NCBI RefSeq assembly: GCF_014490485.1
Contig: NZ_JACTVA010000016.1
Coordinates: forward strand, 1-64,000
Direction: 5' to 3'
DNA from: Teichococcus aerophilus
GTDB lineage: Bacteria; Pseudomonadota; Alphaproteobacteria; Acetobacterales; Acetobacteraceae
Length of the DNA stretch: 64,000 nucleotides
The translations under genes and the position numbers were made by a program. Positions 1 through 16,850 of the stretch are shown piece by piece. The notes beneath the pieces were generated by a model, which did not search any database, was not told the DNA's origin, and was given only the letters and a program-made list of their open reading frames with translations. How positions within the stretch are numbered: the first letter of the stretch is position 1; each line of letters begins with the position of its first letter.

Positions 1-2633
1 TCCGCCGGCACGTCCAGCGCGGCGGCCCAGCCCAGGGCGGGGCTGGCGTCCAGCGCCAGCCCGGGGCCGCCGTCGTGCTGCCCGGCCAGGAACGTCTCCA
101 TCCGGGTCAGCCAGCGGGACGGCACGGTGGGGGAGCCGGCGCGCTTGCGGGCGCGCGCCAGCACCGCCTGCGGGGCGGAAGCGGCGGCCAGCAGGAAATC
201 GGCGGCGACGCGGCCGATGCGGGCCTCCGGCGCCGGCAGGCCGAAATCGGCGCGCATCGGCCGGCTCATCCACGGCCCCGGGTCGGTGGCCTGGGGCCAG
301 ACGCCTTCCTCCAGCGCCCCCAGCACCGCCAGGTCGAAATGCTGCAGCCGGGCTTCCAGCAGGCCGAGGATGGCGACGCGCGGATGCCGCCCGCCCTCCC
401 GCCCCCGGCTGATGCGGATGCTGGGGGCCAGCGGCCCTTCCAGCGCCACGTCGAACAGCGCGGGCCAGGAGGCCGGGCTCATCGGCGCCAACTCGCGGAA
501 GGCCGGCGGCAGGCTGGCGAGGTGCACGGCCAGCGGCTCACCCTCCTCGCCCGCATAGAGGCGCAGGCCGCCCGGGCGGGTGTCGGTGGAAGCCAGCGCC
601 TCGGCGGCGATCAGGTGCGCGTCCAGCAGGTCGGCCGGCGGGCGGGCGGGGCTGTCCGGCAGCTCGCTGAAATCGGCGAGCGCGGCTTCCAGCGCGTCCA
701 GCAGGCCGAGGGCGCTGGCCAGCAGCGCGGCATCCCGCTCCCGCCCCAGCGCCTCCAGCACGCGGGCACGCAGGCCGGGCAGGCCAGGGGCGGGGCGGGG
801 GCCGCGCAGGGCCCGGCGTTCGATCAGCCGCACCGCCTCCATCCACGCCGCGCGCTGCATGCCGCCCGCAGCCAGCGGGTGCTTGATCAGTGCCAGCAGG
901 GGCACGGGTGCGAACCCTTCCGCCACGGCGCGGGCCAGCAGGCGCAGGAAGGCGCCGGCCGGGGTCTCGCCCAGCGGCTGGCCGGCGGAATCGTCGGCCA
1001 GCACACCATGCCGCGTCAGCTCGGCGGCCACGCGCCGGCCGAGGTCGCGGTCCGGGGTGATCAGCGCGGCACGGGCGCCGGGCGTCTCCAGCGCCTGGCG
1101 CAGCAGCAGGGCGATGGCCACCGCCTCCGCCTGCACATCGGCGGCTTCCAGCAGCGACAGGCCGGCCAGCGCCGGCTTCCAGTAATCCGGCTGCCGGTCC
1201 AGCCAGGCGCCGATGCCGGCGGCCGGGCGCATGACGCGGCCCAACAGTTCCGCCCGCCGTGCCAGGCCAGGGTCCCCCACCGGCACGCCCGCCGGTTCCA
1301 GATGCGCGCCGCCCAGCCCGTGCCAGGGCCGGATATCCGCCGGCACCGCGCCCATGTCCTGCAACAGCCTGCTCTGGCCGAACAGCGGGTGGGTCGGGCT
1401 CTGGCAGATCGCCTCCCACAGTTCCGGCGTCATCTTCTCCATGCCGTCATGCAGCACCACGGCACCGCGCGGCAGGCCCGCGATCACCTTCAGCAGCGCC
1501 GCGGCGGCGGGAATGGTGCCGCCGGCGCCGATGCCGGCGGCGAAGACCGGGTCGGCCGGCGGGTTTTCCCGCCATGCCTCCGCCTGCGCTTCCAGCGCTG
1601 CGACGCGGCGGGGGCCGATATCCATCAGCCCCTGCTCCTCCAGCCACTGGTTCCAGGCATCCAGCACGCCGCGCAGGAAGGTGATGGTCACCTGCCAGTG
1701 GGTGGCGAATTCCTCCGGCACCAGGCCGGGCAGCGCCAGGGGGTCGCAGCCCTCCAGCGCCATCTCGTCCAGCAATTCGGCCAAGGCCGTCGCCAGCCGC
1801 CAGGCCTGCTCCGGGCCGCTCGGGCCGCCGTAACGGGGGGGCAGGCGCAGCACCAGCGCGGTCAGCACCGCCTGCCGGCGCGGCGCGTCCACCGCCGGCG
1901 GCAGGTCCAGCAATCCCGGCAAGGCCAGTTCGTCCGCATCCTCGACCGACAGGCCGGTCAGCGCCCGCATCGCCGGCAGCAGCAGGGTGCGGCCCCCGGC
2001 GGCGCGCAGGAAGGCCTCCCGCAACGCCATCGCCGCACGCCGTGTGGGCAACAGGATCGTCACGCGCGCCAGCGTCGCCGGGTCATCCCCCAGCCCGCCC
2101 ATCTCCTCGATCACGCCCTGGGCCAGGGTGTCCAGGAAGGGCAGGTGCGCCGGGATGTTGTAGAGGCCGAGCACATGGCGCGGGCGGGGCGGGGCGCTGG
2201 GGTCCGTGCTCGCGGGGGCTTCGGCAGAGGCGGACGTGGAGGCGGGGGGAGAAGGCTGGGGAAGGAATTCCCCAGACCCCATCTTCTTTTCCTCGAGTTT
2301 TTCCGCATGCGCGGAGGACGGCGGCAGGTCTTCCTGGGCGGGGTTGCGCCGGAGATCTTTGGCCTGCGGCGGCTGCGCGTGCAGCCCACGTTGCCGCTTT
2401 GATGTTTTCGCGGCGCCGCCTTCAAGCGGCGCAGCCAGATCCTTCGATGTTCCGTCGGCCTGTCCCACCTCGGCCGCCCCCGATTCCAGCGCAGCTTTTT
2501 CTGGCAAAATGGAGGAAGGGGCCTGGGGAATTCCTTCCCCAGCCTTGCCGCTCGCCCTGCCAGCAGATGGCGGCGGCGACCCGAAATCCAGCTGCGGCTG
2601 CACGGCAGGGTCGGGCCGGGGGCCGCGTGGCAT
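1..2633 (-). CDS. addB: Double-strand break repair protein AddB (partial, runs off the window edge)
   Basis: AddB is the helicase-like, nuclease-bearing partner of AddA in the RecBCD-type recombination complex that resects DNA ends. The minus-strand frame is open from the ATG at 2633 to base 1 (about 877 codons). The C-terminal nuclease domain and addA would lie beyond the window. The family-like part begins near residue 152 (RHVLGLYNIPAHLPFLDT), followed by LLPTRRAAMALREAFL. The ATG overlaps the murU stop as ATGA, so the gene is the last visible member of tsaE-amgK-murU-addB. The N-terminus carries a low-complexity extension of about 150 residues. Residues ~30-128 of it are encoded by a dispersed inverted-repeat element (2252-2546) that stays in frame. 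A start nearer residue 150 is possible, but the ATGA coupling favours 2633. Identification rests on recognised family sequence and operon context. Confidence 0.88.
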   Translation of the reverse strand, partial: MPRGPRPDPAVQPQLDFGSPPPSAGRASGKAGEGIPQAPSSILPEKAALESGAAEVGQADGTSKDLAAPLEGGAAKTSKRQRGLHAQPPQAKDLRRNPAQEDLPPSSAHAEKLEEKKMGSGEFLPQPSPPASTSASAEAPASTDPSAPPRPRHVLGLYNIPAHLPFLDTLAQGVIEEMGGLGDDPATLARVTILLPTRRAAMALREAFLRAAGGRTLLLPAMRALTGLSVEDADELALPGLLDLPPAVDAPRRQAVLTALVLRLPPRYGGPSGPEQAWRLATALAELLDEMALEGCDPLALPGLVPEEFATHWQVTITFLRGVLDAWNQWLEEQGLMDIGPRRVAALEAQAEAWRENPPADPVFAAGIGAGGTIPAAAALLKVIAGLPRGAVVLHDGMEKMTPELWEAICQSPTHPLFGQSRLLQDMGAVPADIRPWHGLGGAHLEPAGVPVGDPGLARRAELLGRVMRPAAGIGAWLDRQPDYWKPALAGLSLLEAADVQAEAVAIALLLRQALETPGARAALITPDRDLGRRVAAELTRHGVLADDSAGQPLGETPAGAFLRLLARAVAEGFAPVPLLALIKHPLAAGGMQRAAWMEAVRLIERRALRGPRPAPGLPGLRARVLEALGRERDAALLASALGLLDALEAALADFSELPDSPARPPADLLDAHLIAAEALASTDTRPGGLRLYAGEEGEPLAVHLASLPPAFRELAPMSPASWPALFDVALEGPLAPSIRISRGREGGRHPRVAILGLLEARLQHFDLAVLGALEEGVWPQATDPGPWMSRPMRADFGLPAPEARIGRVAADFLLAAASAPQAVLARARKRAGSPTVPSRWLTRMETFLAGQHDGGPGLALDASPALGWAAALDVPA
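2252..2546. mobile_element. Family A inverted-repeat element inserted in frame in addB
   Basis: A 295-bp copy of the dispersed family A module. The left end begins AAGGCTGGGGAAGGAATTCC at 2252 and the right end is its inverted complement finishing at 2546. Each end has a GGGGAA/TTCCCC hairpin and a following pyrimidine tract. Unlike the intergenic copies, it contains no stop in the addB frame and encodes about 98 residues (GKAGEGIPQAPSS near the start, KKMGSGEFLPQPS near the end). On the addB coding strand the tract after the first hairpin is broken (TTCCTCCATTTT) instead of the usual near-uniform T run. This would weaken termination. That functional reading is inference. Confidence 0.85.
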
Positions 2634-3388
2634 CAGAACAGAACCCGGGTCAGCCCGGTGGCCAGCGCCACTTCCGCCCGCCGCAGGTCGATGGGGCGGG
2701 AGAGGTGGAACCACGCGCCGTCATGCACCAGGCCGAACAGCCGCCCGGCCTCCATGGCGCGGGCCCAGGGCTGGCGCATGCTGAACGGGCCTTCCGTGCT
2801 GCCGTCCAGCAGGCGCGGATGCACGACCTGCAGCCCGCCGAAGACATAGGGGGCCACTTCCTTCTCCTTCGGCCAGCGCACGTGGCCCAGCGGGTCCAGC
2901 AGGAAGTCGCCGTTCCCGACCTCGGCATCCACCTGGGCGGAGCGCACCATCAGCAGCAGCGCGTCCATCTGCTCCGGGTCGAAGCGCCCGGCCAGGCGCT
3001 GGATGGTGGGCACGGGGCCGTCCAGCCAGAAGGCATCGCCGTTGACGACCAGGAAGGGCTGGGTGCCGAGCAGCGGCAACGCGTTCTTCACGCCGCCGCC
3101 GGTCTCCAGCGCCGTCTCCTCCCGCAGCACGGTGGGGGGGTGGGTGCGGGTGGCGCACACCTCCTCGATCAGGTCGGGGAACCAGTGGGCGTTGACCACC
3201 ACGTTGCCGATGCCGGCATCCTCGATCCGGTCCAGCGCGTGTTCCAGCAGGGTGTGGCCGGCCAGCGGCAGCAACGGCTTCGGGCGTGCCTCGGTCAGCG
3301 GCCGCATGCGGGTGCCGAGGCCGGCGGCGAGCACCATCGCGGAAGCCAGGGGCGCCGGGTCCTGAAGGGTGGGGGAGGAAACGGTCAA
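2633..3388 (-). CDS. murU: Nucleotidyltransferase, MurU-like (N-acetylmuramate-1-phosphate uridylyltransferase)
   Basis: Expected to convert MurNAc-1-phosphate and UTP to UDP-MurNAc in the peptidoglycan recycling bypass that avoids MurA. The sequence opens with the nucleotidyltransferase signature AMVLAAGLGTRMRPLTEARP, then KPLLPLAGHTLLEHALDRI and VVNGDAFWLDG, whose aspartate sits at the metal-binding position. It is about 251 residues, a usual length for MurU. The best start is a TTG at 3388 overlapping the amgK stop (TTGA); an internal ATG gives a start near AMVLAAG. It is coupled to the kinase AmgK upstream and to addB downstream. The AmgK-MurU pairing makes the substrate assignment fairly safe, although it was not tested against other sugar nucleotidyltransferases. 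Confidence 0.85.
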   Translation of the reverse strand: MTVSSPTLQDPAPLASAMVLAAGLGTRMRPLTEARPKPLLPLAGHTLLEHALDRIEDAGIGNVVVNAHWFPDLIEEVCATRTHPPTVLREETALETGGGVKNALPLLGTQPFLVVNGDAFWLDGPVPTIQRLAGRFDPEQMDALLLMVRSAQVDAEVGNGDFLLDPLGHVRWPKEKEVAPYVFGGLQVVHPRLLDGSTEGPFSMRQPWARAMEAGRLFGLVHDGAWFHLSRPIDLRRAEVALATGLTRVLF

Positions 3389-4404
3389 GCAGCGTGTTCC
3401 TTGAGAGCGGCGGGGTTCTGGCGCAGCGGGAGCGGCACGTAGCGGTCGAGGAAGCGGGTCAGCGGCGCGGTGGAGGGATGATGCAGCGCCTGCGCCAGCA
3501 GCCCCCAGCAGCGCGGGCCGTGGCGCAGATAGCCGAACTTGCCATCCCGTTGCGCCAGCCGCACCCACAGCGAGGCGACGCGCAGATGCCGCTGCGCCGC
3601 CATCGCCGCCGTGGCGGCGGTGAAGGACGCGACATCCACATCGGGGCGGGCGGCGAAATAGGCTTCGGTGGCCGCCTGCCGCACCGCCGGCGCCACGTCG
3701 CGCCGGGCATCCTGCAGCAGGCTGACCAGGTCGTAGGCCGGATGGCCGCGCGCGGCATCCTGGAAGTCGATGATGCCGACGCGGCGCGCGCCCGGCCGCT
3801 GCGGCAGGTGCAGCAGGTTGGCCGGGAAATAGTCCCGGTGCACGAAGCCGCCGGCGCCCAGGAAGGGGTCCAGCATGGCGCGCATCGCCGCCTCGAATTC
3901 GTCCCGCACCTCCGGGCTGGCGGGGGTGCCGAAGGTCGCGGGCCACCACCAGTCCAGGAAGGTCAGCCCGGCCATCCGCGTCATGGTCGGCGCCTCGTAA
4001 TCCGGCAGGCCGGCGGGGGGCGGGGCGGCATGCAGCGCCGCCAGTGCCTCCGCCGCGCCGACATAGAGCGGCAGCGGGTCGGCGCCGGCATCCAGCAGCG
4101 CGGCATGAGTGTCGTGGCCCAGATCCTCCACCAGCAGCAGGCCGTTGGCACGGTCCTCCGCCAGGATGGCGGGGGCGGACAGGCCCAGCCCGCCCAGATG
4201 CGCGGCGACGCGCAGGAACGGCACCAGATCCTCCTCCGGCATCAGCCCGACCTTGGCGGCATCAGTGCAGTCCATCAGCAGGGCAGGCCGAGGCACCGCG
4301 CCGGAGAGGCGGGTGTAGCGGCGGTGCCCGGCATCCTGCGGCAGGGCGGCGCGACTGGCCTGGGCGTAGCCCTGGGTGTCCAGGAAGGTGTCGATGGCGT
4401 TCAT
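3385..4404 (-). CDS. amgK: AmgK-like anomeric MurNAc/GlcNAc kinase (aminoglycoside phosphotransferase fold)
   Basis: A 339-residue kinase of the APH family, predicted to phosphorylate the anomeric hydroxyl of MurNAc so that MurU can make UDP-MurNAc. The catalytic loop reads FVHRDYFPANLLHL (residues ~188-201), with the catalytic aspartate and metal-binding asparagine, followed by GIIDFQDA, the DFG-equivalent. The family's usual HRDFH is HRDYF here. The N-terminal LLVEDLGHDTHAALLD segment is typical of the nucleotide-binding lobe. The gene lies 64 bp after tsaE and overlaps murU, the order seen in many alphaproteobacteria (tsaE-amgK-murU-addB). Some databases label these proteins simply as phosphotransferases; the neighbour makes AmgK the best reading. 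Confidence 0.86.
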   Translation of the reverse strand: MNAIDTFLDTQGYAQASRAALPQDAGHRRYTRLSGAVPRPALLMDCTDAAKVGLMPEEDLVPFLRVAAHLGGLGLSAPAILAEDRANGLLLVEDLGHDTHAALLDAGADPLPLYVGAAEALAALHAAPPPAGLPDYEAPTMTRMAGLTFLDWWWPATFGTPASPEVRDEFEAAMRAMLDPFLGAGGFVHRDYFPANLLHLPQRPGARRVGIIDFQDAARGHPAYDLVSLLQDARRDVAPAVRQAATEAYFAARPDVDVASFTAATAAMAAQRHLRVASLWVRLAQRDGKFGYLRHGPRCWGLLAQALHHPSTAPLTRFLDRYVPLPLRQNPAALKEHAA

Positions 4405-4468
4405 GCTGCGGCAGGTTCCTGGCGGCGGCGGGCGGTTTTGCCAAGGGAAGGTTGCATGTACCGGCGCG

Positions 4469-4939
4469 TCATGCCGCCAGCGCCTCCAACCGGCCGGCCC
4501 ATCCGGTCAGGGTGGCGGTGCGCTGGTCGCCCTCCCCGGGCTCCAGCGCCAGGCACAACGCGTCCGTGGGGGCCAGGTGCTCCAGCCGCTGCGGCCACTC
4601 GACGATGACGATGCCGTCCCGCGCCTCGTCCCACCCCAGCTCGATCAGCTCATCCGGGCCGGAGAGGCGATACAGGTCGAAATGATGCGCCACGCCCGCC
4701 GGCAGCTCGTAGGCCTGGACCAGGGTGAAGCTGGGGGAAGGCACCTCCAGCCCCGAATCGCCGGCGGCGGCCCGCAGGAAGGCGCGGGCGAAGGCGGACT
4801 TGCCGGCCCCAAGCGGCCCCTCCAGCAGCAGTGCATCGCCCGGCCGGGCCAGGGCGGCGGCGCGGGCGGCCAAGGCCTCGGTCGCCGCCAGATTGGGCAG
4901 GGAAAGGGTCAGGACAGGGGGCGCGAGATCATGGGGCAT
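4469..4939 (-). CDS. tsaE: tRNA threonylcarbamoyladenosine biosynthesis ATPase TsaE
   Basis: TsaE is the ATPase that works with TsaB/TsaD to form t6A at position 37 of ANN-decoding tRNAs in the cytoplasm. The 156-residue protein has a P-loop at residues ~38-46 (GPLGAGKSAF), then VPSPSFTLVQAYE and HHFDLYRL, the family signatures, and IVIVEWPQRL. The ATG at 4939 (MPHDLAPPV) gives the normal length. The frame stays open upstream to 5128, but that stretch runs through a repeat end and is not family-like. First gene of the tsaE-amgK-murU-addB group; a promoter is expected in 4940-5100. Confidence 0.93.
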   Translation of the reverse strand: MPHDLAPPVLTLSLPNLAATEALAARAAALARPGDALLLEGPLGAGKSAFARAFLRAAAGDSGLEVPSPSFTLVQAYELPAGVAHHFDLYRLSGPDELIELGWDEARDGIVIVEWPQRLEHLAPTDALCLALEPGEGDQRTATLTGWAGRLEALAA

Positions 4940-5012
4940 CGGCCCCCCAATCTGCCCCGCCGCGCGCCCCGGCCACAAGGGCGGCGGCTTGTTTGCCTGA
5001 CCAGGGCTTTGT

Positions 5013-5072
5013 GAGAGGGGCGGTGCCCCTCTCACGCTCTCCCCGCCAAAGGACTGAGGCCTTTGGAAACCC
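5013..5072 (+). repeat. Solo end of dispersed family B repeat
   Basis: Two consecutive hairpins: GAGAGGGG/CCCCTCTC with a short loop, then CCAAAGGACTGAGGCCTTTGG followed by AAACCC and GGGTTTT. It matches the B-type end at 21059 and, inverted, the ends at 29606 and 58244. I see no convincing partner end on the other side, so this looks like a solo end or remnant. It sits about 75 bp upstream of tsaE. Confidence 0.75.
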
Positions 5073-5321
5073 GGGTTTTGGCACGCGTCAGGGATGCCGG
5101 CTGCCTGTCGAGACAGATATTTATACAATTTCAGTGCGTTGATCCCTCAGCCTAGGACCACGGGCTTCGGCGCCTGTTCAGTTCATCTCAGGGACCAGGA
5201 TCCTGTTCCGCCGACCACCGGCTTGCCGCCAGGCTGCAACCGGCGCTGTGCTATCCGACCGCCACCCATTCGCCAGGCGCGGCACCGCTCACCGAAACAG
5301 CGCACCCCTCCAACACCCGCA

Positions 5322-5372
5322 AACTGGCAGAAAAAAGGAAGGGGGTCCGGGGGAATTCATTCCCCCGGCCTT
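5322..5372 (+). repeat. Solo end of dispersed family A repeat
   Basis: An A-rich tract (AGAAAAAAGGAAGG), then GGGTCCGGGGGAATTCATTC and CCCCGGCCTT, the inverted-complement form of a family A end. No matching opposite end is found within the tsaE/binding-protein gap. The gap from 4940 to 5516 therefore holds a solo B end, this solo A end and a hairpin near the downstream gene; the rest shows nothing I can name. Confidence 0.7.
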
Positions 5373-5477
5373 CACATACGCCCCGGTTCGCGTGGTGCAT
5401 CGCGAAAGCGCGAGCATCCCGCAAGGCGCACCTTGCGCGGCCACCTGCCCCCCGTCTTAATCCGCGCCCCAGCGTTG

Positions 5478-5499
5478 CGAACCAGCAACGCCTGGTTCG
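5478..5499 (+). promoter_or_regulatory. Hairpin in the leader of the binding-protein gene
   Basis: CGAACCAG (5478-5485) and CTGGTTCG (5492-5499) form a perfect 8-bp stem with a 6-nt loop, 17 bases upstream of the ATG at 5517 and directly before the GGGAGGG ribosome-binding sequence. It could be an operator or an RNA structure controlling translation. The function is unknown. Confidence 0.4.
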
Positions 5500-5516
5500 G
5501 GAGGGAACAACCCATT

Positions 5517-6545
5517 ATGCGCCTGCTGGCATCCACCTGCCTCGGCGGCTTTGCTGCTGCCTTCGCCCTGCTCGCCACCCCGGCCGCTGCCCAGCCAGCG
5601 ACCGACGCGCTGGGTGCCATCCGCGCGCGGGGCGCCCTGGTCTGCGGCGTCACGCCCTCCACCGTCGGCTTCGCGACGCCCGGCAGCGATGGCCGCTTCC
5701 GCGGCATCGACGCCGATTACTGCCGCGCCATCGCCACGGCGATCTTCGGCGACCCTGACAAGGCGCGCATCGTCCCCACCACCACTCAGCAGCGCTTCAC
5801 GCAGTTGCAGTCGGGCGAGATCGACGTGCTCTCCCGCGTCACGACCCAGACGCTGTCGCGCGAGGCCTCGCTGGGCCTGGCCTTCGTCGGCACCAACGTG
5901 TTCGACGGCCAGGGCTTCCTGGTAAAGAAGTCCCTCGGCATCTCTTCGGCGCGGGAGCTGAACGGCGCCACCATCTGCATGCAGCCGGGCTCCACCACCG
6001 AGCTGAACGCGGCGGATTGGTTCCGCGCCCAGGGGCTGACCATGACCCCGCTGCTGATCGAGGATGTGGAGGAAGTCCGCAAAGCCTTCTTCTCCGGCCG
6101 CTGCGACGCCTACAGCACCGATTCCACCACCCTGGCTGCGCTGCGCTACAACCAGGGCGCCAATGCCGACCAGTTCGTCGTGCTGCCGGAGATCATCTCG
6201 AAGGAGCCGCTGAGCGTGGCCATCCGCAAGGGTGACTGGCGCTTCTTCGACATCGCCCGCTGGACCCACTTCGCCCTGCTGACGGCGGAAGAGCTGGGCC
6301 TGACGGCGGCAAATATCGACAGCCACGCCAACAGCACCAACCCGGACATCCAGCGCTTCATGGGCCGCACCGGCGACCTGGGGAAGATGATGGGGCTGGA
6401 GCCGGACTGGGCCGTGCGCATCATCAAGGCACTGGGCAACTACGGCGAGATCTGGGACCGCAATCTGGGTCCGATCGGCATCCCCCGCGGCGTGAACAAC
6501 CTGTGGACCAAGGGCGGCATCCAGTACGCGCCGCCGATGCGCTGA
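5517..6545 (+). CDS. Periplasmic amino-acid-type ABC transporter substrate-binding protein (AapJ/YhdW-like)
   Basis: A 342-residue family 3 solute-binding protein with an N-terminal signal peptide (MRLLASTCLGGFAAAFALL, cleavage near AAAQPA). The family motif LVCGVTPSTVGFATPGSDGR lies near residues 40-60, followed by FRGIDADYCRAIATAIFG. GRCDAYSTDSTTLAALR and the C-terminal GNYGEIWDRNLG are typical of the general L-amino-acid binding proteins AapJ/BztA. The ATG at 5517 follows a GGGAGGG ribosome-binding site at good spacing; the longer open frame upstream crosses a repeat and is rejected. No permease or ATPase gene is adjacent, so partner subunits must be encoded elsewhere. The ligand is not determined by the sequence. 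Confidence 0.88.
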   Translation: MRLLASTCLGGFAAAFALLATPAAAQPATDALGAIRARGALVCGVTPSTVGFATPGSDGRFRGIDADYCRAIATAIFGDPDKARIVPTTTQQRFTQLQSGEIDVLSRVTTQTLSREASLGLAFVGTNVFDGQGFLVKKSLGISSARELNGATICMQPGSTTELNAADWFRAQGLTMTPLLIEDVEEVRKAFFSGRCDAYSTDSTTLAALRYNQGANADQFVVLPEIISKEPLSVAIRKGDWRFFDIARWTHFALLTAEELGLTAANIDSHANSTNPDIQRFMGRTGDLGKMMGLEPDWAVRIIKALGNYGEIWDRNLGPIGIPRGVNNLWTKGGIQYAPPMR

Positions 6546-6572
6546 GCTGTACTGGGACTGAATGGGGGCAGG

Positions 6573-7178
6573 CCAGGGGGCACCGCCCCCTGGACCCCCG
6601 CCGGGGTGGAAAGTCCACCCCGGACCCCGCTGATCGTTTTGCCTTGGGTCTGGGTGTCTGGGCGATGCGGGGGTGAAGGCGGGCTCTCCGTGGATTTCCA
6701 AAGGGGATGCTTGCCCGGATCCGGGACGGTCGGCCTATGCATGGCGCTGTGCCGGGGCTCACCAGCGTCCCGTGAAGTTCGGGGATGTTTCTGGCCAAAT
6801 GCATGCATGCTTCCGTTCGGCCTTCGGAACTACAAGGCGAAGCCTGGATCAACACAAAAGCCGCGCGAGCTGAAGCTTCGGCCGTCAGTGACAGGCGCGA
6901 TCCCAGCCGGGCTTAAAGACGAAATCCGGCCAGGCCCACCGAAACTCATGCATTCGAGAAGGATCAAACCTGCAGGTTTGATCGGTGGCATTCCTTCTCG
7001 CCTGACTTGTCGCCTCTTCCTGGAACGTCGGCCAGCCGCCGTTCCAGGGAAACGCCTCCGCGGTCGCTGAGGCTCACGCCACCTCGACATCACCCATGGC
7101 TCTCTTGAACTCATGGCGGGGCCTGGGGTGGCCCTGCCACCCCAGCGGGGGCGTCCAGAGGGGCGGCGCCCCCTCTGG
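6573..7178. mobile_element. Dispersed family C element with inverted ends
   Basis: The left end (6573-6630) has two successive hairpins: CCAGGGGGC...GCCCCCTGG and GGGGTGGAAAGTCCACCCC, then GGACCCCGC. The right end (7116-7178) is the inverted counterpart. The roughly 480-bp interior has no convincing gene but includes a perfect palindrome (see 6955). It fills the gap between two same-direction genes. Interior segments near GCTGAAGC and GTCAGTGACAG recur, inverted, at 35530-35620, supporting common ancestry with the copy there. Origin is unknown; it resembles a miniature non-autonomous element. Confidence 0.72.
6955..7000. repeat. Compound palindrome inside a family C element
   Basis: GATCAAACCTG followed by CAGGTTTGATC is a perfect 22-bp palindrome (6962-6983), flanked by CGAGAAGG (6955-6962) and CCTTCTCG (6993-7000). 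The nested arms could form a cruciform or protein-binding site. No gene lies in this part of the gap. Confidence 0.6.
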
Positions 7179-7264
7179 CCCCGGGCCACCACATCATCCC
7201 CCCGGTTCCGGCGCGGCGCGATATGCCCTATGCACTCGCCCCTCGACACGCGGAGAGAGACCCG

Positions 7265-8314
7265 ATGGCCGACGCCACCCACCCCGCCGCCGTTGCGCAT
7301 GAGGCCGCCATCCAGGCCGATGTCGCCGTCATTGGCGCTGGCCCGACCGGGCTGTTCGCCGTGTTCGAATGCGGCATGCTGCGGATGAAATGCGTAGTGA
7401 TCGACACGCTGGAGGCCATCGGCGGCCAATGCGCCGCGCTGTACCCCGAGAAGCCGATCTTCGACATTCCCGCCCACCCCGCCATCGCCGGCGCGGAGCT
7501 GATCGCGCGGCTGGAGGAGCAGGCCCAGCCCTTCGCCCCCATCTACCTGATGGGCCGCCGCGTCGACGCACTGGCCGATGACGGCGAGGGCGGCTTCGTG
7601 CTGCGCACCAGCCAGGGCGAGCAGGTGCGCGCCAAGGCCGTCATCATCGCCGCCGGTGCCGGCGCCTTCGGCCCCAACCGCCCGCCCCTGAACGACCTGG
7701 AGGCCTACGAGGCCACCGGCGCCGTGCGCTACATGGTCTCCCGCCGCGAGGAACTGCGCGGCAAGCGCGTCGTCATCGCCGGCGGCGGCGATTCCGCAGT
7801 GGACTGGGCGCTGAGCCTGAAGGACATCGCCGCGCGCGTGACGGTCGTGCACCGGCGCCCCAAGTTCCGCGCCGCGCCCGAGACCGCCGCCCAGATGGAA
7901 GCCGCCGCCGAGAGGGGCGAGATCGACCTGGCGATCCCCTACCAGCTACACGGCCTGCAAGGCACCGACGGCAAGCTGGACCACGTGGTCCTGGCCACGC
8001 TGAAGGGCGAGGAGCGCAGCATCCCCGCCGACCACCTGCTGGCCTTCTTCGGCCTGTCGATGGAACTGGGCCCGATCGCGGAATGGGGGCTGGGCCTGGA
8101 ACGCAGCCACATCACGGTGGACCCCGCCACCCTTTCCACCAACCGCCCGGGCATCCACGCCATCGGCGATATCGCCACCTATCCCGGCAAGCTGAAGCTG
8201 ATCCTGCAAGGCTTCTCCGAAGCCGCCATGGCCGCCCACGCCATCCACCCCCGCATCTTCCCGGGCGAGGCGCTGCACTTCGAGTACAGCACGTCGAAGG
8301 GCGTGCCGGGCTGA
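7265..8314 (+). CDS. Ferredoxin/flavodoxin--NADP+ reductase, thioredoxin-reductase-like
   Basis: A 349-residue two-dinucleotide-domain flavoprotein. The FAD-binding GxGxxG motif is at residues ~20-25 (VAVIGAGPTGLFAVFE), followed by the GGQCAALYPEKPIFDIP block typical of the YumC/ONFR-type reductases. The NADP motif is VVIAGGGDSAVDWAL with VVHRRPKFRA. GIHAIGDIATYPGKLKLILQGFSEAA is the C-terminal FAD contact and carries no CxxC, so this is a ferredoxin reductase rather than a true thioredoxin reductase. The ATG at 7265 follows GGAGAGAGA; an in-frame ATG at 7223 is less likely. It could feed or drain the iron-sulfur proteins encoded nearby, but that link is inference. Confidence 0.9.
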   Translation: MADATHPAAVAHEAAIQADVAVIGAGPTGLFAVFECGMLRMKCVVIDTLEAIGGQCAALYPEKPIFDIPAHPAIAGAELIARLEEQAQPFAPIYLMGRRVDALADDGEGGFVLRTSQGEQVRAKAVIIAAGAGAFGPNRPPLNDLEAYEATGAVRYMVSRREELRGKRVVIAGGGDSAVDWALSLKDIAARVTVVHRRPKFRAAPETAAQMEAAAERGEIDLAIPYQLHGLQGTDGKLDHVVLATLKGEERSIPADHLLAFFGLSMELGPIAEWGLGLERSHITVDPATLSTNRPGIHAIGDIATYPGKLKLILQGFSEAAMAAHAIHPRIFPGEALHFEYSTSKGVPG

Positions 8315-8330
8315 TTGCTCAAGGGAAGTG

Positions 8331-8647
8331 AAGGCCGGGGAAGGAATTCCCCGGGCCCCTTCTTTTTTCTGCGCGTTTGGCGGGGCGCCTTGCGGTGGAG
8401 GGACGCGCCGGAAGATGCCGTAGCGGCACCGCCGAACCAAAGGCCTGACGGATTCAGGCGTGACCGCAGCCAGCAGGCGCACCAGCCATCGTCAAAAAGG
8501 CCACGGGCGCTGAACCCTCAGTCGCCGAAGGTCCTAGACCTCTGGCGCGCCCCGGCCCTGTCTCCAACCAGACCGCCCCTCAACAGCCACAGCGACAAAA
8601 ACTCGGAAAAGAAAAGAAGGGGCCCGGGGAATTCCTTCACCGGCCTT
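8331..8647. mobile_element. Family A element between convergent genes
   Basis: The left end starts AAGGCCGGGGAAGGAATTCC at 8331, 16 bp after the reductase stop, and runs into TTCTTTTTTCTGCG. The right end is the inverted counterpart finishing at 8647, 9 bp before the DUF3306 stop on the other strand. The interior carries the CAGTCGCCGAAGGTCC core. Each end reads as hairpin plus T-tract for the gene facing it, so the element can terminate both transcripts (inferred). The rest of the gap has no gene. Confidence 0.85.
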
Positions 8648-8656
8648 TCCTCGTCC

Positions 8657-9295
8657 TCACCCCAGGCGCGGCATCGCCCCACCATGCCGGCGCAGCACGG
8701 GCTGCGGCGGGGGCTCATCGTCCTCCAAGGCCGGCAAGGGCGGGGGTAGCGGTTCGGCCACGGTGAGGCGGACGGGGTCATCCGTCAGCGTCAATGGCGG
8801 GGCTTCGGCGATCATGGCCGGCTCCGCCGCATCGGGATCTCCTGTGCCGAGGTCGGGGCCGGCGAGAGTAGCGTCGGCGATGGTGGCGTCGGGCGGAGAT
8901 TCTTCCTCCGGCTCCTCGGGGGCGCCAATGGCCTGGGCCAGCAGCTTCTTCAGGTCGACATCGCCCAGGTCCAGCGCGAAGCCAGGCACGCCGTTGGGGT
9001 CGTTATAGTTCCAGGCGTAGTCGGCCGGGCCGGTGAAGTCGCGGATGCCGGGGTCGGCGGCCCAGACGCGGCGCAGGGCGGCCTGGCGCAGCAGCGCCGG
9101 CACCTTGGCGTGCAGGAAGGCGGACAGGTCGCTGCCCGCGCCCAGGCTTTCCAGCGGCGGCAGGGTGGAGAGGTCGAACTCTTCCTCGGCAGGCGGTTGC
9201 GGGACGGCGGCGGCGGGCGGCGCTAGCGGCGCCGGGGCCTCCGGTTCCACGCCCCGCTTGCGGCGGGACCAGCGGCTGAGGAAGCCGTCGCTCAT
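8657..9295 (-). CDS. DUF3306 domain-containing protein
   Basis: A 212-residue protein matching the DUF3306 family: it opens with MSDGFLSRWSRRK, followed by a proline-rich linker, then the conserved block LPPLESLGAGSDLSAFLHAKVP (residues ~47-68) and ADPGIRDFTGPADYAWNYND. The C-terminal third is acidic and proline-rich. No enzyme motif, membrane segment or cofactor site is visible. It overlaps DUF3305 by 4 bp (ATGA) and follows it in the same operon. The family is known from gene neighbourhoods with ferredoxin-type and molybdoenzyme maturation genes; its biochemical role is not established. Confidence 0.85.
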   Translation of the reverse strand: MSDGFLSRWSRRKRGVEPEAPAPLAPPAAAVPQPPAEEEFDLSTLPPLESLGAGSDLSAFLHAKVPALLRQAALRRVWAADPGIRDFTGPADYAWNYNDPNGVPGFALDLGDVDLKKLLAQAIGAPEEPEEESPPDATIADATLAGPDLGTGDPDAAEPAMIAEAPPLTLTDDPVRLTVAEPLPPPLPALEDDEPPPQPVLRRHGGAMPRLG

Positions 9296-9813
9296 GAATC
9301 GTCCCGGGGGCGCTGCCGGCGGGCCAGGGCCTCAGGGTCCGCGCGGTCCCGCCGGCGCTTGTGGAAGCCGCGGTCCTTGTGGTGGCGGGCGATGAAATCC
9401 AGCGCCGGGGCGTGCAGGAAGGCGGGCAGGGGCAGGCTTTCCAGCGTGTCGTTGCCGACATCGGCGTAGAGATGCGCCTCGCCCGGGTCCAGCGTCACCA
9501 GGTGCAGCACCATGCCGGGCGCGGCGTCGGCGGGCCGCAGCACCACCCAGACGCGTGGGTCCGGGCCTTCCAGGTTGTGCTTGTAGTTGTCCGTGTCGGT
9601 GGGATGCAGGGAGAGGGTGGCGTGCCCGGCCAGGAACAGGGTGCGGCCGGCCTCCTGGCGCAGCTCGGTCCAGGGCGGCAGGGCGGGCGCGTCCTCCAGC
9701 ACCTCCACCACGCGCCAGACATGGTCGATCCAGCGGCTGGTGGCAGGGCGGCGTTCCGCCACGACGGCCAGGTCGATGCGCAACGTGTCGGGGGTGCCGA
9801 AGGCGTCGCTCAT
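9292..9813 (-). CDS. DUF3305 domain-containing protein
   Basis: 173 residues, almost the whole length matching DUF3305. Features include VVAERRPATSRWIDHVWRVV near residue 18, NYKHNLEGPDPRVWVVLRP, and a short basic tail (KDRGFHKRRRDRADPEAL). No catalytic motif is recognisable. It is translationally coupled to DUF3306 downstream. A small family A element separates it from the DUF6352 gene downstream. The whole set probably acts in assembly or redox supply of a metalloenzyme encoded elsewhere, on neighbourhood evidence only. Confidence 0.85.
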   Translation of the reverse strand: MSDAFGTPDTLRIDLAVVAERRPATSRWIDHVWRVVEVLEDAPALPPWTELRQEAGRTLFLAGHATLSLHPTDTDNYKHNLEGPDPRVWVVLRPADAAPGMVLHLVTLDPGEAHLYADVGNDTLESLPLPAFLHAPALDFIARHHKDRGFHKRRRDRADPEALARRQRPRDDS

Positions 9814-9831
9814 GGCCGCGCTCCCAAAAGC

Positions 9832-9989
9832 AAGGTCGGGGGAATGAACTCCCCCGAGCCCCCTCCTTTTTCTGCCTGTTTGCCGCAGGCTTCAGTGGCA
9901 CGCTTCGGTGCCGCGCGGAGGCCTACCTCCCGCGCAACCCAAAACTGACAAAAAGAAGATGGGGTTCGGGGAATTCCTTCCCCGACCTT
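9832..9989. mobile_element. Short family A element
   Basis: A compact 158-bp copy: the left end AAGGTCGGGGGAATGAACTC begins at 9832 and the inverted right end finishes at 9989 (CTTCCCCGACCTT). The internal core found in longer copies is missing. It lies between two minus-strand genes (DUF3305 and DUF6352), one of the few non-convergent positions. Confidence 0.78.
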
Positions 9990-10003
9990 GCGTGCCACCC
10001 CTG

Positions 10004-11074
10004 TCACGACGCGGCCTCCGCCTGCAGCAGCGGCAGGCCGGTCAGCAAGTTCTGCGGCTTCAGGCGTACCCGCTGCGCCGCGTCCATCGCCAGCGCCAGG
10101 TACACCGGCTGGCCGGCGGCGCGCGGCAGCACGCGGCTGGGCTCGGTGAACTCCAGCACGCCGAGCCAGAGGATGCGCGCCAGCCGGGTCTGCGACACTT
10201 CCTTGCCGTGCCAGAGGTCGTTGGCGAGGGCGGTGGCCTCGGTATCCAGCCCGACATGCCAGGACCAGTTCTGGTCCTCGATGACCATGGCGGGGCGGAT
10301 GCTCACCTCCTCGCCCATCACATGCGCCAGGAAGCGCTCCAGGGCACGGGCCAGGGCGTGCTGGCCGGGGCGGGTCTCGGCGATGTCCAGCGCGTAGTCA
10401 TGCGCATCGGCGCGGGCGGCGTAGGGGGCGGGGTCGGGCGCGCCCAGCACGTCCAGCTCCACCTCGCGCGGCGGCGAGCCGGCTTCGGCCAAGAGTTGGC
10501 CCAGCGTGCCGAAATCGCCATCCTGCGCGCGGGCATCGACGGTTTCCTCATCCGCCAGCAGCAGCGCGCCCTGGTGAATGGCGGCGCGCTGCGGCCGGAA
10601 CAGGCATTCGGCGGCGCGCAGGACATACGCATCCTCCACCCCCTCCATCGCGGCGCGGGTGACGAGTTGCGTGAGCATCTGCAGGAACAGCGGCGGCACA
10701 CCCTGCACGCCGGCGCGATACAGGCCGATCCAGGCAGCCTCCAGCGTCGGGTGCGCCATCACCCGGTCGCGGAAGCCGAGGAAGACCTGCCAGTTCTCGG
10801 CGGCATCGGGGTCGGCCAGGCGGGCCAGCGTGGCGGCGTCCACCGGCCGCAGCGGGTCCCGCAACAGGGCGGCGTGCAGCACGCGCTCGGCCTCGCAGGC
10901 TTCCTCCGGCGGCAGCAGTTCCGGCCGGGCCAGGAAGGCGCGCCACAAATCGGGCGTCGGCATCAGCCTTCCCTGCGCGTCCCGGTCGCAGAGATGATGG
11001 CCGGAGGCGACCCAGAAATCGGGCCACAGGGCGCGGGGAGAGGGAGAGGGAGAGGGAGAGGGAGGGGCGTTCAT
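10004..11074 (-). CDS. DUF6352 family protein
   Basis: 356 residues. After a PS-repeat N-terminus the family sequence begins FWVASGHHLCDRDAQGRL (residues ~20-37), then LLPPEEACEAERVLHAALL, and LLADEETVDARAQDGDFGTLG in the middle. The long C-terminal part (WSWHVGLDTEATALANDLW) has no motif I can tie to a reaction. The family sits repeatedly beside DUF6505, ligase-like and ferredoxin-like genes, as here. The ATG is preceded by the DUF6505 stop, overlapping by 4 bp. The N-terminal (PS)n run is encoded by a hexanucleotide repeat and may vary in length between strains. Function unknown. Confidence 0.8.
   Translation of the reverse strand: MNAPPSPSPSPSPRALWPDFWVASGHHLCDRDAQGRLMPTPDLWRAFLARPELLPPEEACEAERVLHAALLRDPLRPVDAATLARLADPDAAENWQVFLGFRDRVMAHPTLEAAWIGLYRAGVQGVPPLFLQMLTQLVTRAAMEGVEDAYVLRAAECLFRPQRAAIHQGALLLADEETVDARAQDGDFGTLGQLLAEAGSPPREVELDVLGAPDPAPYAARADAHDYALDIAETRPGQHALARALERFLAHVMGEEVSIRPAMVIEDQNWSWHVGLDTEATALANDLWHGKEVSQTRLARILWLGVLEFTEPSRVLPRAAGQPVYLALAMDAAQRVRLKPQNLLTGLPLLQAEAAS
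11037..11066. repeat. Hexanucleotide tandem repeat in the DUF6352 5' coding end
   Basis: About five consecutive GGGAGA units on the + strand, encoding alternating Pro-Ser on the minus strand right after the start codon. The 6-bp unit preserves the reading frame if copy number changes. Confidence 0.85.
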
Positions 11075-11613
11075 CGGCGCGCCATCGCGCTCAGGTCGGG
11101 GGTCTCCATCGGTTCGTCCTCTCCCTCCACCTCGACCACGCCGAAGACGGGCAGGCTGCCGAAATCATGATGCGGGTTCTCCCGCCGGTGCAGGGTGCGG
11201 AAGCGTTCCCGCACCGCGCCATCCTCGATGCTGCGTGCCAGCGCCAGCACGGTGCCGGGCGGATGGTCGCACAGCGATTCCGCGAAGCGGATCTCTTCCT
11301 GCGCGGCGGCCTCCGCCGCTGCGTCGTCCGGCGCGCCATAGGCCTGGCGGATATGGCTGGCCAGGGCGGCCACGGCCGCGGCGCGCTGGTCGGGAGTCGC
11401 CTCCGCCACCTCCACCAGCGTCGACCAGCCGAAGCTGCCGAGGCCGAGGAAGCCGGCGCGGAAGGCCTGCCGCCGCTTGCCGGCCAGGCCGGCCGGGTCC
11501 TCGTCCCAGAAAGCGAAGCCGCCGGGCACGGCCCACTCGCCGGGCTCGGCGGCGGCGTCGAACACCACGGCGTCCGAGGCATCGAGGCGCAGGGTACGGG
11601 GCAGGCGCGTCAT
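11071..11613 (-). CDS. DUF6505 family protein
   Basis: A 180-residue protein. It starts MTRLPRTLRLDASDAVVFD and continues with GEWAVPGGFAFWDEDPAGLAG and KRRQAFRAGFLGLGSFGWST, the family's characteristic first half. The remainder is helical and acidic, without an active-site pattern I recognise. The ATG at 11613 overlaps the stop of the ligase-like gene upstream (ATGA). The frame extends upstream in the same phase, but only as a shadow of that gene. Part of the ligase-DUF6505-DUF6352 transcription unit. Confidence 0.8.
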   Translation of the reverse strand: MTRLPRTLRLDASDAVVFDAAAEPGEWAVPGGFAFWDEDPAGLAGKRRQAFRAGFLGLGSFGWSTLVEVAEATPDQRAAAVAALASHIRQAYGAPDDAAAEAAAQEEIRFAESLCDHPPGTVLALARSIEDGAVRERFRTLHRRENPHHDFGSLPVFGVVEVEGEDEPMETPDLSAMARR

Positions 11614-12350
11614 GGGCTGGTCGCCTCCAATGCGTGGCGGCGGCGCTGGCCGTCGCGCTCCAGCAGCAGGGCGCCGGTACGGGGGTCCAGCGCCCGGCGG
11701 GCGCCCTCCATCCAATCCTCCGGCTCCAGCCTCGCCAGGGTCTTCTCGGCCAGGCGGCGGATGCCGTCGTCCTGCCACTCCGCCAGCCCGGCCATTAAAT
11801 GGCGCGCCCAGGCGGCCACCAGTTCCGGCACCGGCACCTCGGTGAAGCCTTCCTCGCACAGCACGGTCCGGCCGGGGTGCAGGCCTGGCTCCGCCGCCTC
11901 CGCCTGCCGCATCCGCAGCCGGACGCCGACGACGATCCAGGCGGGCACAGCGTCCGCTGCCGCGCCCTGCGGCACGGCCAACACGGCCTCGCCGACCTGC
12001 CCACCATTCACCAGCAGCGTGGCGGGCCAGCGCAGCGTCACCGGGATTTCCGGTGGGCCGAGCACCACCAGCGCATCGGCCATGGCGTTGGCGGCCGCCA
12101 GCAGGGCGGGGTGGGCGGCCTCCAGCGGCGTTTCCGGCTCCAGCACCACCGCGGCGTCGATGCGCCCGGCGGAATCGGCCCAGACCAGGGTGCCGGCGCC
12201 ATGGCGCGGCGCCATCGCCACAGCCTCGGCCACCGCATCGGCCGCCGCCGTCAGGGCGTGCGGGGTAAAGACGCTGGGCAGGGGCGGCAGGGTGGCGGAC
12301 GGTTCCAGCGGCATCAGGCCGGCCCCTGGCTCAGAGACTGTTTCAGACAT
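11610..12350 (-). CDS. Biotin/lipoate--protein ligase family protein
   Basis: A 246-residue member of the BPL/LplA/LipB-related fold. Visible features are GAGTLVWADSAGRIDAAVVL (residues ~50-70), which aligns with the nucleotide/biotin loop region of the family, VTLRWPATLLVNGGQVGEA (the RWPNDLL-like stretch of biotin ligases, here RWPATLL) and VGVRLRM. The aspartate of the classic WPND motif is absent, so normal biotinylation may not occur. The stop overlaps the DUF6505 start. It is transcribed divergently from the ferredoxin-like gene, with 247 bp between them. The target, if any, is unknown. Confidence 0.78.
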   Translation of the reverse strand: MSETVSEPGAGLMPLEPSATLPPLPSVFTPHALTAAADAVAEAVAMAPRHGAGTLVWADSAGRIDAAVVLEPETPLEAAHPALLAAANAMADALVVLGPPEIPVTLRWPATLLVNGGQVGEAVLAVPQGAAADAVPAWIVVGVRLRMRQAEAAEPGLHPGRTVLCEEGFTEVPVPELVAAWARHLMAGLAEWQDDGIRRLAEKTLARLEPEDWMEGARRALDPRTGALLLERDGQRRRHALEATSP

Positions 12351-12597
12351 CGGCTGGCTAGGGGCGCGGTCGGGATTCTTCGTGCCGGCGCGGAGGCGGC
12401 GCCGGCCCAAGCAGTACCGGCCCGTTGCGCGGCGAGGCAGGGCAACGCCCCGGGGCGTTCCCGCCCCGGTTGTCCCGCTTTCCGGCTGGCGGCCCAAGGC
12501 GGCGTGGGCAGAGGCTGTCCTGGCGATCCGGGCATCCAAGCCATATATGCCCGGGTGCATCATCTCGCCACAGCGGCGTGGAAGGGTTCTGCACGAT

Positions 12598-14619
12598 ATG
12601 GATAACACCACGCGCCGCACGGTCTTCGCCTGCTCCTGCGAGGACACCATGCTGCTGGATGACGGCGCGCTGGCGAAGGGCTGCGGCGGCCGGCTGAAGA
12701 CGGCCGAGCAATTGTGCCGCAGCCAGTTGGACCGCTTCCTGGCCGCCATGGGCACCGACGCGGTAACGGTGGGCTGCACCCAGGAAGCCCCCCTGTTCCG
12801 CCAGGAGGCCGAGACCGCCGGCCATACCGGCCAGCTGGACTTCGTGAATATCCGCGAGCAGGCCGGCTGGTCCGAGGACGGCGCCGCCGCCGGGCCGAAA
12901 ATGGCCGCCCTGCTGGCCGCCGCCGCCGTGCCCATGCCGCCGACCCCTTTGGTGCCGCTGGCCAGCGAGGGCGTGACGCTGATCCTGGGCCGCGACGCCA
13001 CGGCGCTGCGCCTGGCCGAGAAGCTGAAGGGCAGCCTGGACCTGACCGTGCTGCTGACCGGGGAGGAGGAGGTGGAACCGCTCCGCCAGGCCGACTACCC
13101 GGTGCTGCGCGGCCGCGCCCGCGCCGCCGCCGGCTGGCTGGGGCAGTTCGAGGTGACGGTGGATGGCCATGCCGCCGCCTCCCCCGCCTCCCGCGCCGCC
13201 TATCGCTGGGGGCGGGCGCAGGACGGCGCCGTCAGCCGCTGCGACGTCATCCTGGACGTGACCGGCCGGGCGCCGCTGTTTCCGGCCGACGAGGTGCGGC
13301 TGGGCTACCTGCGCGCCGCGCCGGGCGACGACGCCGCGCTGGAGCGCCTGGCGACCGAGGCCGCCACCCTGACCGGCGCCTTCGACAAGCCCCGCTTCGT
13401 CACCTTCGATGCCGGGCTGTGCGCCCATGCGCGCAACCGCCGCACCGGCTGCACCCGCTGCCTGGACCTCTGCCCCACCGGCGCCATCACCCCCGGCGCC
13501 AAGGGTCATTGGGACAGCGTGGCCGTCAGCGCCGAGATCTGCGCCGGCTGCGGCGCCTGTGCCGCCGTCTGCCCCACCAGCGCCATCACCTACGCCCTGC
13601 CGCCTTCGGACGCGCTGTTGCGCCGCGCCCGTACCCTGCTGCGCGCCTACCACGCCGCCGGCGGCACCGCCCCCACCCTGCTGCTGCACGGGGAGGACGG
13701 CGAGGCGATGTTCGACGCTCTCTCCCGCCACGGGCCCGGCCTGCCGGCGGACGTGCTGCCGCTACGCGTCGGCCAGGTGACGGCGATGGACCTGGCCATG
13801 CTGGTCGCCCCCTATGCCTGGGGCGCCGGCTGCGTGCGGGTGCTGATGCCGGGCCGCCGCCCGCATGGCGCCGACGGGTTGCTGGGCAACCTGGATACCG
13901 CCATGGCGCTGCTCGGCGGGCTCGGCCTGTTCGCCGGCCCCGGCGCCATCGAGACCGACGACCCCTTCACCCTGCTGGACGCCCTGCACGCCGGCCCCCG
14001 CCGCGTGCCCCTGCCGCGCGAGGCCGACTTCCTGCCCATGGGCACGCCACGGGAGATGCTGAAGGCCGCCATGGCCTCCCTGCGCGACGCCATAGCGGTG
14101 CCGGCCACCAGCATCGCCTTGCCCGCCGGTGCCGCCTTCGGTGCCGCGCATGTGGCGGATGGCTGCACGCTGTGCCTGGCCTGTACCATGGTCTGCCCCG
14201 CCGGCGCCTTCGCCGCCAACCCGGAACGGCCCGAGCTGTCCTTCCTGGAAGATGCCTGCGTGCAGTGCGGCCTGTGCGTCGCCACCTGCCCGGAGAAGGT
14301 CATCAGCCTGGAACCGCGCCTGAACCTGCTGCCGGAAGCCGGCGCCCGCCAGGTCGTGCGGCAGGAACAACCGGCGGAATGCGCCGCCTGCCACAAGCCC
14401 TTCGGCACCCGCGCCTCGATCGACCGGGTGAAGGCGAAGCTGCAGGCCACCGGCCACTGGATGTTCGCGGATGATTCCCGTCTCGCCCTGCTGGAACTCT
14501 GCGAGGATTGCCGCGTCCACGCGGCCACCGACGCCGCCATCGACCCCTATGCCGGCCCAGCCCGGCCGCGGCCCCGCACGGAGGAAGACTACCGGCGCGA
14601 GGCGGGCGAACAAGGCTGA
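12598..14619 (+). CDS. Large 4Fe-4S ferredoxin-type protein with HdrA-like N-terminus
   Basis: 673 residues, cytoplasmic. The N-terminus has CSCEDTM (Cys 12, 14) and further cysteines around AEQLC and VGCTQEAPLF, a pattern reminiscent of HdrA-type proteins. Two pairs of [4Fe-4S] motifs follow: C285/288/292 with an extra upstream Cys, C315/318/321/325 (CAGCGACAAVCP), C523/526/529/533 (CTLCLACTMVCP) and C554/557/560/564 (CVQCGLCVATCP). A CAAC...CEDC pair near the C-terminus could bind zinc. ATG 12598 opens the family-like sequence. The upstream open stretch overlaps the divergent ligase gene and is rejected. Probably an electron-transfer hub for the neighbouring DUF3305/3306/6352/6505 set. No catalytic dehydrogenase is in the window. 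Confidence 0.87.
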   Translation: MDNTTRRTVFACSCEDTMLLDDGALAKGCGGRLKTAEQLCRSQLDRFLAAMGTDAVTVGCTQEAPLFRQEAETAGHTGQLDFVNIREQAGWSEDGAAAGPKMAALLAAAAVPMPPTPLVPLASEGVTLILGRDATALRLAEKLKGSLDLTVLLTGEEEVEPLRQADYPVLRGRARAAAGWLGQFEVTVDGHAAASPASRAAYRWGRAQDGAVSRCDVILDVTGRAPLFPADEVRLGYLRAAPGDDAALERLATEAATLTGAFDKPRFVTFDAGLCAHARNRRTGCTRCLDLCPTGAITPGAKGHWDSVAVSAEICAGCGACAAVCPTSAITYALPPSDALLRRARTLLRAYHAAGGTAPTLLLHGEDGEAMFDALSRHGPGLPADVLPLRVGQVTAMDLAMLVAPYAWGAGCVRVLMPGRRPHGADGLLGNLDTAMALLGGLGLFAGPGAIETDDPFTLLDALHAGPRRVPLPREADFLPMGTPREMLKAAMASLRDAIAVPATSIALPAGAAFGAAHVADGCTLCLACTMVCPAGAFAANPERPELSFLEDACVQCGLCVATCPEKVISLEPRLNLLPEAGARQVVRQEQPAECAACHKPFGTRASIDRVKAKLQATGHWMFADDSRLALLELCEDCRVHAATDAAIDPYAGPARPRPRTEEDYRREAGEQG

Positions 14620-14641
14620 CGGAAGGCTTCGGGGGAAAGGG

Positions 14642-15069
14642 AAGGCCAGGGAAGGAATTCCCCGGACCCCTTCTTTTCTTTTTTCGAGTTTTGGGTGGGG
14701 GTGGTCTGGCTTGGCCGGCGGGGCGTTTGGGAGGTCCGGGGCTTCCTGCGACTGAGGGGCAACCCGCGTGAGATTTTTGGAAATGGCTGGTGCGTCTGCT
14801 TGCTGAGGGCGCGGTCGGAATGCTCGTGCCAGCACGCAGGCGAATGAGAGACATTGGTCCAAGCCACCGACAATGTTGGCGCCGAACGGGTCGTTGCAAC
14901 CGACGCCACAGGCTTCTGAAACAGCTCCAAGAATTTTCCCGTGCCATGATTCGCCTGTCAGCGACGAATGGCGCTGCGAAACCTCCCCTCGCGCCACCCC
15001 TCCATCGTGAAGCGCAACGCCAAACTCGCAGAAAAGAGATGGGGTATGGGGAAATCCTTCCCCAGCCTT
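14642..15069. mobile_element. Family A element carrying a nested IS-derived repeat
   Basis: The left end AAGGCCAGGGAAGGAATTCC begins 23 bp after the ferredoxin gene and runs into a long T-tract (TTCTTTTCTTTTTTCGAG). The inverted right end finishes at 15069. At 428 bp it is longer than the usual ~244 bp because a ~160-bp IS-derived repeat sits inside (14770-14931). From 15070 to 15245, before the DMT gene, I see no gene or clear site. Confidence 0.8.
14770..14931 (+). mobile_element. IS-derived miniature element, copy 1
   Basis: It aligns along most of its length with the reverse complement of 38689-38845. Shared blocks include GCTGAGGGCGC, CGTGCCAGCAC and CCAAGCCACCGA, and the end CTTCTGAAACAGCTCCAAG resembles the other copy's CTTCTGAAACAACGTCTAA. 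The ends look like degenerate terminal inverted repeats of IS5-type elements. No transposase is present. Confidence 0.65.
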
Positions 15070-15245
15070 CCACCTTCCATCCCGGTCTCAACTCCGCAGG
15101 CCGGCCCAGGCGGAACCACCGTGGAAGGGCGCCATCACGCCGTCGCCGCCCGCTCAGCTTACGTCCGTTTCATCTGCGGACGTATCGCGAAACCGCTGGC
15201 TGGGGGTGCATGTTGTGCGCCTGTCCTTCAAGGCCCGCATCCCCG

Positions 15246-15599: not shown

Positions 15600-15799
15600 C
15601 CGGCAGGGGCGGTCGGTTCTTGCCTGCTCATGCATGGGCAGCCGGTGGCCATGCCAACCCAAGGCATCGGTGGGCGGGGCGCCAATGCGGCCGGCGCCGC
15701 TTGTAGGCCAGCCAGCGACGGTGCTGGCGGTTGGCCGCCAAGGCATTCCGCTGGTCCGCCCCCTTGGCCTGCTTCCCGCCAGGCCGTATCCGTCTGCCC

Positions 15800-16612: not shown

Positions 16613-16821
16613 GGATGCCTCGGCTGGCGCCGGGTTGATCTGAAGCGAGCGCCGCAGGCGGCGTGAGGGCGCCTTCCCGGACGCTCCGCCGCTTTTGGCA
16701 GGACGGCGCTGGCGGCGAGAGCACGTGCTTGCTGCCGCAGGCTCTGCGGGCGTGACGGAGCTCGCCGTTGGGAGGGAACGGGAGGCCCCGGCCTTGCTGC
16801 CGGTCCCAGTTGTCGATGGCT

Positions 16822-16850
16822 ACCGACACCGACACCGACACCGACACCGG
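16822..16850. repeat. Hexanucleotide tandem repeat (ACCGAC)n
   Basis: Four complete ACCGAC units plus a partial one, about 140 bp upstream of the Zur box. The gap 16613-16987 has no gene otherwise; the repeat could vary in copy number. Confidence 0.85.

Follow-up and report, generated by a model that had tools for sequence, protein, structure and literature searches.

A dispersed inverted-repeat module lying in frame within the 5' region of addB in Teichococcus aerophilus, probably translated as part of AddB

Insertion of repeated sequences in frame with protein-coding genes is already documented in several bacteria. Rickettsia palindromic elements (RPE) are short palindromic repeats lying in frame within genes, which they have entered recurrently (PMC10969869). 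The enterobacterial RU/ERIC repeats are MITE-like intergenic sequences whose ORFs have been found joined to annotated genes, away from conserved domains; in the case of super-family proteins, the fusions affect C-terminal regions (PMC2759123). Coxiella QMITE1 and QMITE2 are MITEs with direct repeats at their ends that overlap ORFs, in some cases in frame (PMC5896051), while the pneumococcal SPRITE is described as a dispersed hairpin followed by a U-rich tract and enriched between convergent genes (PMC3049150).

Here we describe a copy of a dispersed inverted-repeat module located at positions 2252-2546 (minus strand) of a 64,000-nt stretch of the T. aerophilus genome (hereafter the window), within the 5' region of addB. 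Like the RU/ERIC repeats and the QMITEs, this family is MITE-like, and its copy in addB is in frame with a gene and outside the conserved domain; it differs from the former in affecting the N-terminus of a DNA-repair protein and from the latter in that no direct repeats were seen by eye at its ends. It shares with SPRITE the dispersed hairpin, the tract and the preference for convergent genes, and differs, when the two are compared by description, in having two ends that point inward, with a conserved core between them, and in its GC-rich host. The first-pass annotation of this DNA had likened the addB copy to the RPE. This comparison is fair in the sense of "works like", since a palindromic repeat lies in frame in a housekeeping gene and would add residues where the protein tolerates them, as judged from the reading frame and from relatives. 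In contrast to the RPE, which are described as entering many genes and as coding for a conserved peptide (PMC10969869), we found neither recurrent gene entry (one of 66 sampled distinct pairs) nor a conserved peptide in one frame (each of the six consensus frames contains stops), and the module, again compared by description, is longer and resides in another host.

The hairpin core of the module ends (at most one mismatch) occurs 512 times in the genome (forward count), the reversed control pattern not at all, and it is present in 16 of 17 genomes of the genus, with 16 to 297 occurrences in each other positive genome. With a typical full module (60884-61126) as query, matches were obtained in 19 of 58 relatives searched, i.e. 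in 16 of the 17 same-genus genomes and in three others, two of which (G019 and G039) gave E values of about 6e-4 and the third (G027) five matches, the best of 3.8e-9. Of 55 pairs, 48 were oriented and served to build the consensus (249 nt); the remaining 7, whose orientation could not be assigned, were omitted from the stop and tract counts given below. The family has several traits of MITEs, namely short length, many copies, inverted ends, a consensus with stops in six frames and no gene of its own. Its presumed mobility is supported by one filled/empty site: the module at 9833-9989 parts two minus-strand genes whose counterparts in Acetobacteraceae bacterium AT-5844 (L108, about 7030-7160) overlap by ATGA. 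This module sits within a likely operon. No target-site duplication was seen by eye at two sites. A REP/RAYT reading was rejected, the Y1 transposase PF01797 having no match in this genome and being present in 1 of 16 genomes of the genus. Rfam held no family for the module and identified a single tRNA in the 64-kb window, and literature searches on Roseomonas palindromic repeats (screened by title), on Roseomonas miniature inverted repeats and on Acetobacteraceae interspersed repeats yielded no description of it. The window also contains a second, intergenic-looking repeat family with GGGGTGG...CCACCCC ends, at 6587-6643, 34992-35048, 38594-38650 and 45343-45399, with further sites at 7103-7150, 35442-35489, 35622-35669 and 39058-39105.

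The genomic placement of the modules was surveyed using gene calls of a home-made hexamer model. The first sample (51 stretches around 92 exact cores, plus the window) contained 55 pairs and 34 single ends, and the second 51 pairs and 22 single ends, their union comprising 66 distinct pairs from at most a fifth of the genome. In an 864-kb sample, consisting of six contigs plus the contig of the window, 29 of the 49 paired modules flanked on both sides by called genes lay between convergent genes, 19 between codirectional and one between divergent genes, against a background, over all 506 neighbouring gene pairs, of 92, 326 and 88, respectively. There is a strong excess of paired modules between convergent genes, with almost none between divergent ones. 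The addB copy was the sole paired module entirely within a called gene in the first sample; no such pair was found in the second, where addB was uncallable since the contig end cuts the gene. Of the 66 distinct paired modules, the addB copy is thus the only one to lie in a gene whose coding character is supported on either side of the module. A stricter test of both flanks likewise failed to select addB, its upstream score being -23.1 over a stretch that took in the linker and out-of-frame sequence of the upstream gene.

Other apparent in-gene copies were discarded. In the first sample, the L077 candidate (1556-1583) lies in a genuine gene but is a core that occurs there by chance, with two mismatches, and those at L080 1293-1320, L057 1895-1922, L091 5270-5521 and 5344-5371 of the window were judged, on sequence and Pfam positions, to lie in overcalled ORFs whose true start follows the element; a partly overlapped pair of the second sample (C1 62791-62985) represents the same place as the L057 copy. 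Four single ends of the second sample lay within called ORFs: three had negative upstream scores, and the fourth, at 5330-5373 of the window, had an upstream score of +17.8 but is followed by a signal-peptide-like start.

The family had been called terminator-like in the first-pass annotation, a description that fits its placement mainly between convergent genes and is weak by a strict terminator scan. Only three module ends were called in the parts scanned (1-20000 and 50001-64000), at 9836-9857 and 14646-14665 (both reading outward) and at 60886-60909, and none in addB; calls are few because the tract usually begins several bases past the stem. Folding produced the expected hairpin at two intergenic ends and, on either strand, at the distal end of the addB copy, while the minimum-energy fold of its proximal end differs from this hairpin. 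The term is retained here for a putative function suggested by hairpin, tract and placement between convergent genes.

The addB gene is carried on the minus strand, as an ORF starting with ATG 2633 and truncated at base 1 by the contig end. Codons 1-29 (2547-2633) encode an N-terminus alignable with that of AT-5844, the closest named relative by AddB (the host group being Roseomonas/Pseudoroseomonas). They are followed by the module (codons 30-127), by a Pro/Ala/Ser-rich linker (2175-2251) leading to the AddB fold, and by conserved AddB sequence (3-2174), which the contig end cuts. The TIGR02786 model (addB_alphas) matches the product from residue 157 onward (E 4.7e-173); a Pfam search of the AddB fragment gave no match. 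The start codon overlaps the TGA of an upstream gene (2633-3394, minus strand) for a MurU-like nucleotidyltransferase, whose best NCBIfam models fall below cut-offs and to which addB is apparently coupled (TGATG). No SD-like sequence was found before ATG 2633, so that initiation there would depend on this coupling.

The ends of the addB module, distal 2252-2286 (plus strand) and proximal 2512-2546 (minus strand, first reached by addB transcription), form an inverted match of 91% over 35 nt, and the module-end profile detects both (E 2.2e-14 and 1.2e-11). The distal part (2246-2395) is 71-76% identical to other copies in the same genome (best E 1.9e-21), and the 295 nt correspond to 98 codons (30-127) with zero stops in frame, whose predicted product includes AALESGAAEVGQADGTSK. 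This confirms what had been claimed from the letters alone, that a complete module with both inverted ends lies in the addB 5' region and is free of stops in the addB frame. Overall, the copy is 59% identical to the 249-nt consensus, with well-kept ends and a diverged core, about 60 nt of which (2405-2463) remained uncovered among the matches listed.

In AT-5844, addB likewise starts at TGATG, and its N-terminus can be aligned with the one here (MPRxP...QxQLDFGxPP; MPRRPGSEAQQQLDFGAPP... there against MPRGPRPDPAVQPQLDFGSPP... here, with a two-codon gap), but it is followed by the AddB fold without the module. The conserved LGLY (LGLYNIPAH) is preceded by 38 residues in AT-5844 and by 154 here; in G007, whose addB also has a TGATG start, by 21; and in four other species examined by 6 or 8. 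The AddB N-terminal tail thus appears to be a variable region in the genus, whose first 20 or so residues probably predate the insert, as judged from one species. A search of the literature on the AddB N-terminus in Roseomonas found nothing. In the 900 nt upstream of the AddB fold at 13 other same-genus loci, the profile found no module ends (one chance-level match, E 0.54). Three of the 16 other genomes (G009, G010 and G011; 97-99% complete) yielded no match to AddB when its first 877 residues were used, and their addB may be lost, replaced or in gaps. A match of the element peptide in G009 was rejected, since it comes from an intergenic copy located in sequence that contains runs of N. Residues 12-18 of AddB (about 2580-2600) form a QxQLDFG segment common to AT-5844, where G007 has MDLFADQ; we take the QxQLDFG segment to resemble a clamp-binding short motif.

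The expectation that relatives would lack exactly residues 30-128 was borne out for the module itself, which is absent from AT-5844, but the low-complexity linkers on both sides differ as well, leaving no base-exact empty site. Likewise, the predicted gain of about 98 residues agrees with the 98 codons of the module, whereas the excess over AT-5844 is 116, about 18 of which come from the linkers.

The addB copy is also unusual in its stops and T-tracts. Over 299 nt its six frames contain only two stops, a density below that of every other copy among the 48 (median 4.0 per 100 nt); counted for the coding strand alone, its density is the second lowest. Open frames number 15 of 141 in the same orientation and 21 of 141 in the opposite one across the other 47 oriented copies, which makes the open frame in addB unusual, not extraordinary; an open join keeping the frame would arise without selection in about 3.5% of cases (15/141 times 1/3 for the exit frame). 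The 18 other diverged copies have 8 open frames among 54 in the same orientation, and even the one poorest in stops has twice the stop density of the addB copy. At the proximal end the hairpin core is retained, and on the coding strand the 22-nt tract following this first hairpin includes 6 T, the lowest count among 82 measurable tracts (next 7; a further 14 of 96 had no recognisable core), while that of the distal end, on the antisense strand, is ordinary (13 T, rank 55 of 82). The tract is therefore broken on the addB coding strand in comparison with other copies, as had been proposed. Removal of a putative termination by selection is plausible. The ranks describe a single copy, selected by a reader to whom the window was already known, and are no more than suggestive.

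The composition of the module is a different matter. The hexamer model scores it as non-coding, and its third-position GC is 0.65, whereas the two linkers have 0.79 and 0.85 and the AddB fold 0.93. Such values would be expected if the insert were recent or loosely constrained, or if it were untranslated. AlphaFold2 (15 aligned sequences) assigned pLDDT below 50 to residues 1-144 and placed the first strand at 157-161, and the fraction of disorder-promoting residues is 0.77 both in residues 1-155 and in the module alone, against 0.59 in residues 156-876. The non-coding character suits a true start moved downstream to ATG 2282 (2280-2282, residue 118) in the distal end, from which only about ten module residues would be translated (the product beginning MGSGEFLPQP), the remainder forming an untranslated leader. 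This codon has an SD-like GAGG 8 nt upstream; an ATG occupies the equivalent place in 22 of 93 family ends, accompanied by an SD-like 4-mer in only four, that of addB included. Elsewhere, moreover, long ORFs traverse modules though the likely start lies past them. Such a start, the main rival to ATG 2633, would nevertheless fail to account for the join being open and in frame, for the scarcity of stops (the lowest density in the family sample) and for the retained TGATG start with its N-terminus, and we regard it as unlikely.

We consider it probable that a mobile repeat entered the addB 5' coding region and that translation runs from ATG 2633 through the module, about 98 disordered residues being tolerated. 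Insertion into a pre-existing addB coding region is well supported, because AT-5844 has the same start and N-terminus without the module and because only the coding-strand tract is broken. Taking into account the frame, the start context and the relatives, the module is very probably translated. The dispersed, MITE-like module would have inserted between some 20 older N-terminal residues and the AddB fold, in a tail whose variability and lack of structure in the genus may have allowed the extra residues; initiation would be coupled to the MurU-like gene via TGATG, and selection for addB expression probably favoured the open frame and the broken tract after the first hairpin. Both this selection and a near-neutral effect on AddB are inferred. 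In favour of translated insertion we count the AT-5844 start and N-terminus, the failure of the profile to find module ends at the 13 other same-genus loci, the one in-gene copy in 66, the stop and T-tract ranks, the 3.5% join and the pLDDT; against it, the non-coding score, the third-position GC, the internal ATG with GAGG, the lack of an SD-like sequence at ATG 2633 and an N-terminus common to one species only.

A step further would be domestication, in which the terminator-like repeat, its sense-strand termination disabled and its stops purged, serves as a long disordered AddB linker tethering the QLDFG segment to the fold; this seems quite unlikely. A start at GTG 2174, just before the fold, with everything upstream as leader, is highly improbable: short-tailed relatives do start near the equivalent point, but this codon has no SD-like sequence, and the open join, the scarcity of stops and the retention of the TGATG start with its N-terminus would again be unaccounted for. 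Equally remote is the absence of any insertion (an extension of ancestral origin that relatives have lost, or a join made at the repeat during assembly), for which the uncovered core and the 59% identity might speak, since the family is recognisable in both ends and in the distal part, the module is in none of the 13 other same-genus loci, and both flanks belong to one locus in AT-5844, which makes an assembly chimera unlikely.

With regard to annotation, the long ORFs running in frame through several modules (5344-5371, L057, L080 and L091) by overcalled starts are a warning. Translated insertion into addB is what the first-pass annotation had in mind in proposing that a mobile repeat may have become protein sequence; the insertion part is upheld by AT-5844, which has the same start and lacks the module, and the translation part follows as a probable reading from frame, start context and relatives. 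The addB copy is a clear single example of in-frame repeat insertion, in a family for which we found no description in the literature searched. Present here and absent in a close relative with the same start, it provides a clean case of an intergenic repeat probably becoming protein, with measurable change limited to the sense-strand tract.
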